Shown in pieces: positions 59,887-61,968 of a stretch of 64,000 bases of DNA (within the stretch, counting starts at the first letter, position 1; each line of letters starts with the position of its first letter). The notes beneath the pieces are model-generated. The model saw only the letters and a list, made by a program, of their open reading frames with translations. It ran no database searches and was not told the DNA's origin. Source of the stretch: an uncultured Pelagibacteraceae bacterium (GTDB taxonomy: Bacteria; Pseudomonadota; Alphaproteobacteria; Pelagibacterales; Pelagibacteraceae); contig CACJEC010000001.1 in the NCBI GenBank assembly GCA_902592325.1, positions 124,001 through 188,000 on the forward strand, given 5' to 3'. Made by a program: the position numbers and the translations under genes.

Positions 59887-60374
59887 ATAATTTTGATTTT
59901 TGTTTTTTTATTTATTATTTTTAGGAGAATTAACATATCTTTTTTTTTAATTGCTACACAACCTTGTGTTTTACTATAATTATTTGTCAAATGTAGAAAA
60001 ATTGCACTTCCTTTATTTTTTTTTGGTTTTGTAGTGTTATAATGAATTATAAGTACAAGATCATATTTTTTATCTCTCCTATATAGTTTTTCAGATCTAA
60101 TTTTTTTTCTCGATCTTATAATTTTATTATAAAACCTACTGTTAATATCATCACACCATCTAAAATTTTTATTGATTTTTATTGTTTTAATTTTCGTTTG
60201 AGGTTTTGATAGTCTATCTTTTCTAAAATAAAGTGGGCCTAAAGCGTAAGTACCTTTGGGAGTTTTATTATCTCCTTCAATTTTTTTTGATGATACACCT
60301 GCTTTTCCAACACTACATTTAAATTTAAAATCATCGTATAAAAGTGTATCTTTATTTTGAATTATGATTTGCAT
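59883..60374 (-). CDS. L,D-transpeptidase (YkuD)-like protein
   Basis: CSVGKAGVSSKKIEGDNKTPKGTYALG; catalytic H..SxTQGCVAI (IFLHLTNNYSKTQGCVAI). Confidence 0.88.
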   Translation of the reverse strand: MQIIIQNKDTLLYDDFKFKCSVGKAGVSSKKIEGDNKTPKGTYALGPLYFRKDRLSKPQTKIKTIKINKNFRWCDDINSRFYNKIIRSRKKIRSEKLYRRDKKYDLVLIIHYNTTKPKKNKGSAIFLHLTNNYSKTQGCVAIKKKDMLILLKIINKKTKIKII

Positions 60375-60383
60375 TTTATTTTT

Positions 60384-60944
60384 ATGAATTCTAAAAATTT
60401 ATTAATATATGACTCAGTTAAATTATTTCAAATACTAGATGAAATCAAAGAAAATTTAAATTTTAAAATTAATTTTATTGCTAAAAGTGAACTCTCAAAA
60501 ATAGAATTTGAAAAATATAATAACTATTTGGTAGTTACTACAGAATTCAATAAAGACATTAAAAATTGTTTAGTAATAAATAGTCTACCCAAAAAAATTA
60601 AACAAATAATAGAATTAATTAATTTAGGTTTCTTAAGGAATCAATTCAATAACCAATCAAAAATTAAAATTGGAAAATATATTCTTGATTTAAATTCTCG
60701 AAAAATAAATTTTGGTAAAATTAATATTGATCTTACTGAAAAGGAGTGTGATTTAATTTTATTTATTCAAGCTAATAAAAAAGTAAATCTGAAAAAGATA
60801 CAGAAAAATGTTTGGAATTACTCATCAGATTTAGAAACACACACAGTTGAAACACATATATACAGAATTAGAAAAAAAATGATTGATAATTTTAATGACC
60901 CTAGTTTTATAAAATTTGATAAAGAAGGATATTCTTTAAATTGA
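60384..60944 (+). CDS. OmpR-type winged-helix regulator with degenerate receiver-like N-terminus (start trimmed to MNSKNLLIYD)
   Basis: LTEKECDLILFIQANKKVNLKKIQKNVWNYSSDLETHTVETHIYRIRKKM...FIKFDKEGYSL. Confidence 0.88.
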   Translation: MNSKNLLIYDSVKLFQILDEIKENLNFKINFIAKSELSKIEFEKYNNYLVVTTEFNKDIKNCLVINSLPKKIKQIIELINLGFLRNQFNNQSKIKIGKYILDLNSRKINFGKINIDLTEKECDLILFIQANKKVNLKKIQKNVWNYSSDLETHTVETHIYRIRKKMIDNFNDPSFIKFDKEGYSLN

Positions 60945-61045
60945 AAAAAAATCCAATAGCAAAAAGTCTAATTAATAAAAGGTATAAACCAAAAGTTGTT
61001 AAGCCAAAAAAAGGGAAAGGTAGTTTTAAAAGAAAAAAAAATTAA
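60941..61045 (+). CDS. ArfA-like alternative ribosome-rescue factor (34 aa, TTG start), missing from ORF track
   Basis: [40 protein letters not shown][YF]xRK ArfA signature; TTGA start/stop overlap with upstream regulator. Confidence 0.82.
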   Translation: [34 protein letters not shown]

Positions 61046-61968
61046 ATTCTAGCTCCAATTTTTTGGATAATTTTTGATGATAATTCTGTTCCTTTAATTA
61101 AACTTTCTTTTATTGTTAAATTATTAATTATTCCGTGTAAATAACCTGCAGCAAATAAATCACCAGCCCCAGTCAAATCTTTAATTTTCAGATTTTTTTT
61201 TGCATCACACTCAATTATTTCATCTCCAAAAATAGATAATGCTCCTTTTTCACCTCTGGTAATTATTATATTTTTTTTAATTTGTTTAGAAAATGAAATA
61301 ACTTCATCAAATGATTTGGCATTAATTAATGAAATTATTTCTTGTTCATTTGAAAAAACAATATCTAGATCATTTTGAACAAGTTTTAAAAAATTTAATC
61401 TGTGTCTATCAACACAAAATGTATCAGACAATGACATTGCAGTTTTTTTTGAAATTTTAATTGCTTTATCAAATGCTTTCTTAGGTTTTCCTTCATCCCA
61501 TAAATATCCTTCTAAAAAAACAATATCTGATTCTTTAATATTTTTTTCATTAACATCTTTGTCACTTATGTCTCCTGCAGTTCCTAGAAATGTACACATA
61601 GTTCTCTCCGAGTCAGGTGTTATTAGGATTAAACAAGAACCAGTTGGAACTTTTTCATTTTTTTTATTATATAAATATTTAACATTTTCTTTTTTTAATC
61701 CATCCTCATATTTTTGGCCAAGCTCATCGTCACTAATTTTTCCTATAAATCCAACTTCATTACCAAGTTGAGATAAACCAACAATAGAATTAGCAACAGA
61801 ACCCCCAGAAATAGTTTCTTCAATTTTTAATGATGATATTAATGTCTTAAATTCTGACTCATCTATCAATTTCATTGTTCCTTTTATAAGCGAATGATTC
61901 TTTAAAAAATCTTCTGATACTTTACAAAGTACATCAACTATAGCATTTCCAATTCCTAAAATTTTCAT
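61042..61968 (-). CDS. PfkB-family carbohydrate/adenosine kinase
   Basis: GIGNAIVDVLCKV; GGSVANSIVGLSQLG; DLTGAGDLFAAGYLHG. Confidence 0.95.
   Translation of the reverse strand: MKILGIGNAIVDVLCKVSEDFLKNHSLIKGTMKLIDESEFKTLISSLKIEETISGGSVANSIVGLSQLGNEVGFIGKISDDELGQKYEDGLKKENVKYLYNKKNEKVPTGSCLILITPDSERTMCTFLGTAGDISDKDVNEKNIKESDIVFLEGYLWDEGKPKKAFDKAIKISKKTAMSLSDTFCVDRHRLNFLKLVQNDLDIVFSNEQEIISLINAKSFDEVISFSKQIKKNIIITRGEKGALSIFGDEIIECDAKKNLKIKDLTGAGDLFAAGYLHGIINNLTIKESLIKGTELSSKIIQKIGARI

Follow-up and report, generated by a model that had tools for sequence, protein, structure and literature searches.

A 34-residue ArfA homologue conserved in Pelagibacter is a likely ribosome-rescue factor

ArfA-type proteins release ribosomes that have stalled on broken messages. 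In ArfA of Escherichia coli (YhdL) a hydrophobic patch formed by Leu19, Leu24, Phe25, Ala18 and Ile11 activates RF2, residues 1-10 of the activated complex turn back to lie on h44 and S12, and the single substitution Ala18Thr abolishes activity (Demo et al., 2017, PMC5378476). On the side of RF2 the contacts are Trp319, Val198 and Phe217, the first of which explains the specificity for this release factor (Demo et al., 2017, PMC5378476). The E. coli protein is active when cut at Asn47 and inactive when cut after Met40. Another very short factor with a basic C-terminal stretch is ArfT of Francisella tularensis (40 aa), whose rescue activity is also dependent on release factors (both RF1 and RF2 are used); it has no KGKGS motif and, according to its authors, evolved independently of ArfA. 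According to reviews, ArfA occurs only in certain beta- and gammaproteobacteria (PMC8012679), and a survey that applied nucleotide profiles to 15,259 genomes detected it in none of 2,376 Alphaproteobacteria (PMC11633108). Among phages, gp30 of the pelagiphage HTVC027P has been published as ArfA by its match to PF03889 and is highly expressed both early and late in infection (PMC12753301).

The gene described here occupies positions 60941..61045 (+ strand) of the window, i.e., the whole 64,000-nucleotide stretch of an uncultured Pelagibacteraceae genome that was analysed. It has a TTG start and a TAA stop and encodes 34 aa, a size at which the ORF is usually left out of annotation. Upstream lies a 195-aa OmpR-type winged-helix regulator (Trans_reg_C, 60357..60944, + strand; PF00486, 41.2 bits), the stop of which (TGA, 60942-60944) overlaps the arfA start as TTGA, while downstream a convergent pfkB-family sugar kinase (61042..61968, - strand; PF00294, 148 bits) has its stop (61042-61044, - strand) interlocked with the arfA TAA (61043-61045). 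This arrangement is exactly the one described in the original prediction, which had been made from the letters of the sequence and had also recognised the upstream gene as a winged-helix regulator. The overlap between the two genes suggests co-transcription, and regulator and arfA are likely to share one transcript with coupled translation. The sole Pfam match of the regulator is the OmpR-type DNA-binding domain in its C-terminal part; no Pfam receiver domain matched its N-terminal 100 residues. An AGGAT located 5' of the arfA start codes for a conserved Gly-Tyr of the regulator and was for this reason not accepted as a Shine-Dalgarno site. In E. coli, arfA is expressed from a nonstop message that arises through a hairpin, RNase III or a terminator, a mode of control that does not enter into the definition of the family; the SAR11 gene ends in TAA and is not of this regulatory type. 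No strong hairpin or terminator like that of E. coli arfA was found within the gene (fold z-score -1.07), and the message of SAR11 arfA, unlike that of its E. coli counterpart, appears to be a normal one that includes a stop codon.

Against the Pfam ArfA profile (PF03889) the 34-aa product scores 28.6 bits (gathering cut-off 25.5, E = 9.8e-7), the match covering residues 12-33 only, and a profile search of the 925-kb genome returned this ORF as the single match. No other Pfam family matched the peptide, an NCBIfam search with it gave no match either, and it contains no GGQ-bearing RF-1 domain, by which ArfB (YaeJ) is defined. The six best PDB matches obtained with phmmer were all E. coli ArfA chains, residues 2-32 of the peptide pairing without gaps with residues 12-42 of the full-length chain 5h5u. 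By our count, 14 of these 31 positions are identical, including KKGKGS..RK, in good agreement with the gapless pairing of 30 residues and about 13 identities put forward earlier; the significant Pfam score likewise upholds the assignment made then. PF03889 also gave matches in Sulfolobus and, within the sister family, in frames of 366 aa; both were ascribed to chance. We regard the homology as firm and the ORF, judged by its sequence, as a real and conserved ArfA of reduced size, for which a function as ribosome-rescue factor is likely.

Pelagibacter is an abundant bacterium of the ocean, and the gene turned out to be present in most of its genomes. Of the 357 genus (Pelagibacteraceae) genomes with a completeness of 80% or more, 282 have a gapless orthologue, as do 91 of the 113 high-quality ones; the PF03889 cut-off was exceeded in 30 of the 101 genomes of the relatives search, with many more slightly below it. 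All the named top matches were single-cell or metagenome genomes of Pelagibacteraceae/SAR11, Candidatus Pelagibacter ubique SCGC AAA795-A20 among them. Throughout 81 distinct loci N4, L10, K16, K21-S28 (KPKKGKGS) and R31 are invariant although their codons vary, residue 15 is either Y or F and K8 is almost invariant. The median pairwise dN/dS of about 0.08 in these loci (ca. 43% of the pairs were set aside as saturated at synonymous sites) indicates strong purifying selection, and the reading frame first proposed from a single genome is conserved in its relatives. The start codon can be ATG, GTG or TTG, at sites a few codons apart, TTG being the local variant.

The gene is single-copy, and in the relatives examined the order regulator, arfA and convergent pfkB is kept across the genus, with regulator and arfA overlapping or abutting in the majority of 30 loci examined. 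In G198 and G475, which belong to another genus of the family, the order is regulator, photolyase-related gene, arfA, transporter and pfkB; since arfA is also found there near the regulator and pfkB, it is probably older than the split of the two Pelagibacteraceae genera. Where the gene is absent, the regulator stop almost directly meets the pfkB stop (G307, G397) or a different gene sits between the two (G033), and in a pfkB tree, which is a single-gene tree with long branches, the ArfA-negative genomes fall in separate places. ArfA must be dispensable, as both it and the short-tailed relative described below are absent from some complete relatives (the closed genomes G397 and G486).

Outside the family, a mixed ArfA profile (E <= 0.001) matched 23 of 385 evenly drawn Alphaproteobacteria, of which three are Pelagibacteraceae with ArfA. 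Others, such as G381, G435, G327 and G223, have KGKGS-type proteins, the tested ones over or slightly below the Pfam cut-off; the weaker matches are mostly short-tailed. On chromosomes, ArfA is thus genus-wide in Pelagibacter and sporadic elsewhere in the Alphaproteobacteria, and it is frequent in phages of this class and in viral contigs of marine origin. Relatives are carried by phages of Caulobacter, Brevundimonas, Roseobacter, Erythrobacter and Pelagibacter (tblastn; the window peptide itself gave no match to phages, the peptide of a relative did), two of these copies being already annotated as ArfA, and at least 189 viral contigs of IMG/VR encode them. The earlier remark that an ArfA in an alphaproteobacterium would be notable therefore holds for chromosomes when set against the published surveys, but not for phages, which were already known carriers, and sporadic chromosomal copies exist elsewhere in the class.

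The phages HTVC027P (gp30), CRP-212, Cr30, Kikimora and RXM share with SAR11 ArfA the core N-P-x-A-K...KPKKGKGS; compared with the SAR11 gene, the phage ORFs are phage-borne, lie beside phage genes and often have a longer N terminus (gp30 has 58 aa). In the pelagiphages HTVC027P (MN698241.1, 15768-15944) and HTVC034P (MW273922.1, 35184-35309) the gene lies in the packaging region, near those for terminase. In some IMG/VR contigs (L180, L190, L206, L219, L235) the motif is found inside a protein of 120-170 aa whose N-terminal stretch is basic and whose C-terminal part is a KAGNYTKPTMRKRLFE..GQWSARKAQML domain (phrog_17747); in these proteins a rescue motif is joined to a second phage domain. 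The frequency of relatives in phages and viral contigs, together with the high expression of the pelagiphage copy early and late in infection, could be taken to mean that the host gene is a domesticated viral one, with its chief job in phage infection (for example, freeing ribosomes while nucleases of phage or host origin cut mRNA) and not in routine rescue. We consider this unlikely: the host gene is found at one conserved chromosomal site with no phage genes around it, and the closest of the viral copies listed agree with host copies at no more than 27 of 32 positions.

A way to appreciate what has been retained in such a small protein is to compare its two halves with E. coli ArfA, residue n of the window peptide corresponding to residue n+10 of the E. 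coli protein. The peptide then spans E. coli residues 11-44 and is, as anticipated, a minimal form shorter at both ends. Residues 21-34 (61001..61042, + strand; E. coli 31-44) form the mRNA-channel tail, which is fully kept with respect to E. coli; the KKGKGS motif and the basic character are common to both proteins, with eight basic residues here vs. seven in E. coli 31-47. This tail is three residues shorter than the shortest active E. coli truncation reported, and given the activity of the form cut at Asn47 and the inactivity of that cut after Met40, the length is close to the known limit. The half that faces RF2 and the decoding centre, residues 4-19 (60950..60997, + strand; E. coli 14-29, by the PDB alignment and the 81 loci, roles as in Demo et al., 2017), is much less conserved with respect to E. 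coli than the tail. Leu20 and a single aromatic residue (Tyr) at the position of Phe25 are kept, but Ala18 is replaced by Lys, Leu19 by Ser, Asp or Asn, and Leu24 by Lys or Arg, and residues 1-10 are absent.

The partner genes are present. Like E. coli, SAR11 has tmRNA, SmpB and RF2 beside ArfA: the genome of the window encodes an alpha-type tmRNA (contig C6, 32659-32958) and SmpB (contig C12, 7987-8412), and both are present in 22 of 22 complete relatives. In these complete relatives the RF-1-domain proteins number one or two, each of about 350 aa, and none has the size of ArfB, hence the relatives possess RF1 and RF2 but no ArfB. RF2 of the window's genome (prfB on contig C17) and of the closed genome G012 keeps SPF, Phe217 and Trp319 and has Ile at the position of Val198; the switch loop of SAR11 RF1 is devoid of Trp. 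The classic RF2 frameshift site (AGGAGTATCTTTGA) is kept near the start of prfB in both genomes (L303 and L301, respectively), which suggests that SAR11 RF2 controls its own synthesis as the E. coli factor does.

The basic or polar residues now found at the positions of Ala18, Leu19 and Leu24, next to an unchanged tail, could point to an ArfA-descended, release factor-dependent protein that has kept the channel plug and rebuilt the contact to use RF1, in addition to RF2 or instead of it, as Francisella ArfT does with a similarly short chain of 40 aa. This appears improbable, as Leu20 is retained and a Tyr stands in place of Phe25, SAR11 RF2 has the ArfA-contacting Trp319 and Phe217 whereas SAR11 RF1 has no Trp there, and the SAR11 tail is unlike the KKGGSTNKK-like tail of ArfT, from which KGKGS is absent.

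That the peptide might be a short basic binder of ribosomes or RNA that has no relation to ArfA and is similar to its tail by composition is very improbable, in spite of its richness in Lys and Arg, the AT-rich genome and a Pfam match limited to residues 12-33. With a profile that excludes SAR11 host sequences (it includes viral sequences retrieved by a SAR11 query) the peptide scores 60.6 bits vs. a maximum of 16.5 among 20,000 composition-preserving shuffles, which refutes the explanation in its simple form, and among the 1,446 ORFs of the window it scores 58.8 with the same profile, all others staying at or below 6.5. As some non-SAR11 members of this profile were found via a SAR11 query, it is the Pfam result that provides the fully independent test; no other Pfam family matches, and 31 residues can be paired with E. 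coli ArfA without a gap. Finally, a spurious ORF over the ends of two real genes, as its 34 aa, TTG start, usual absence from annotation and lack of an NCBIfam match might suggest, is refuted by the median dN/dS of 0.08, by the frames that stay open in 81 distinct loci while their start codons vary, and by the ArfA-negative relatives, which lack the whole segment and have the regulator stop close to that of pfkB.

All this leaves a genuine minimal ArfA, acting as the alternative rescue factor of the Pelagibacteraceae, as the very probable identity of the ORF. The conserved ORF, its ArfA homology, the purifying selection, the partner genes and the absence of ArfB from complete relatives are direct observations, from which we infer expression, binding, choice of RF2 and rescue activity. 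On a ribosome that has run to the 3' end of a message lacking a stop codon, the lysine-rich tail would enter the vacant mRNA channel and the N-terminal half would settle in the decoding centre and recruit RF2, whose GGQ motif would then be positioned to release the nascent chain. It would be the usual ArfA cycle carried out with a reduced N-terminal fold, and, ArfB being absent from the lineage, ArfA would serve as the backup of tmRNA-SmpB.

Pelagibacter genomes without ArfA often hold an ORF of 45-50 aa that has an ArfA-like N-terminal half and a tail without GKGS (example peptide: MSKKRKKVKKKNPMAKLLSSPMLRNKIVKNKKKIYNRKKFKLGNE). Together with the divergent RF2-facing half and the absence of ArfB, this short-tailed relative goes beyond what had been predicted. 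It was identified in 23 of 318 genomes, none of the 23 being among the 282 ArfA-positive ones; the probability of such exclusivity is near 2e-16 if genomes are independent, which related genomes are not, and the replacements may be few. Two of the ORFs are located in ArfA-negative genomes mentioned above, G307 (C1, 28662-28787, L308) and G033 (C3, 42634-42759, L310), and others in G524 (L311), G558 (L319) and 19 more genomes. Where looked at, the Pelagibacter ORF (NPMAKLLSSPMLRNKIVKNKKKIYNRKK) is near photolyase genes. Aligned with hhalign, the ArfA and short-tailed profiles gave a probability of 97% over 26 columns. In the sister family the short-tailed ORF was found in 11 of 12 good genomes, and the relatives search found no ArfA there. 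This ORF (43-47 aa, NPIARELRTTKYKPHKIQNKKK...) sits between SDR and nitroreductase genes (L073, L074, L076, L077; genomes G061-G072); the 47-aa matches had first been read as ArfA and were reclassed as short-tailed for their lack of KGKGS and their site between these two genes.

The wider alphaproteobacterial set also includes matches to DUF7230 (PF23876), an uncharacterised family, and four loci (L288, L289, L291 and L297, in G377, G455, G441 and G396) hold members or near-members of it. DUF7230 and the short-tailed ORFs are homologous to SAR11 ArfA in their N-terminal half and differ from it in missing GKGS and the adjoining tail residues, suggesting a link of DUF7230 to ribosome rescue. Our hypothesis is that the short-tailed ORF may replace ArfA functionally. 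More tentatively, the Pelagibacterales may possess two interchangeable rescue peptides, one with KGKGS and one short-tailed, the latter related to DUF7230, occurring also elsewhere in the Alphaproteobacteria and constituting a new class that recruits release factors, while viruses would carry and spread the KGKGS type.

ArfA is found genus-wide within a class in which surveys had counted none. With 34 aa, near the smallest form that the mechanism allows, the protein poses directly the question of which parts of ArfA are required. Judging by the large number of viral copies, nonstop ribosomes seem to be of importance when marine Alphaproteobacteria are infected, and a short-tailed relative replacing ArfA would provide a testable candidate function for the members of DUF7230.
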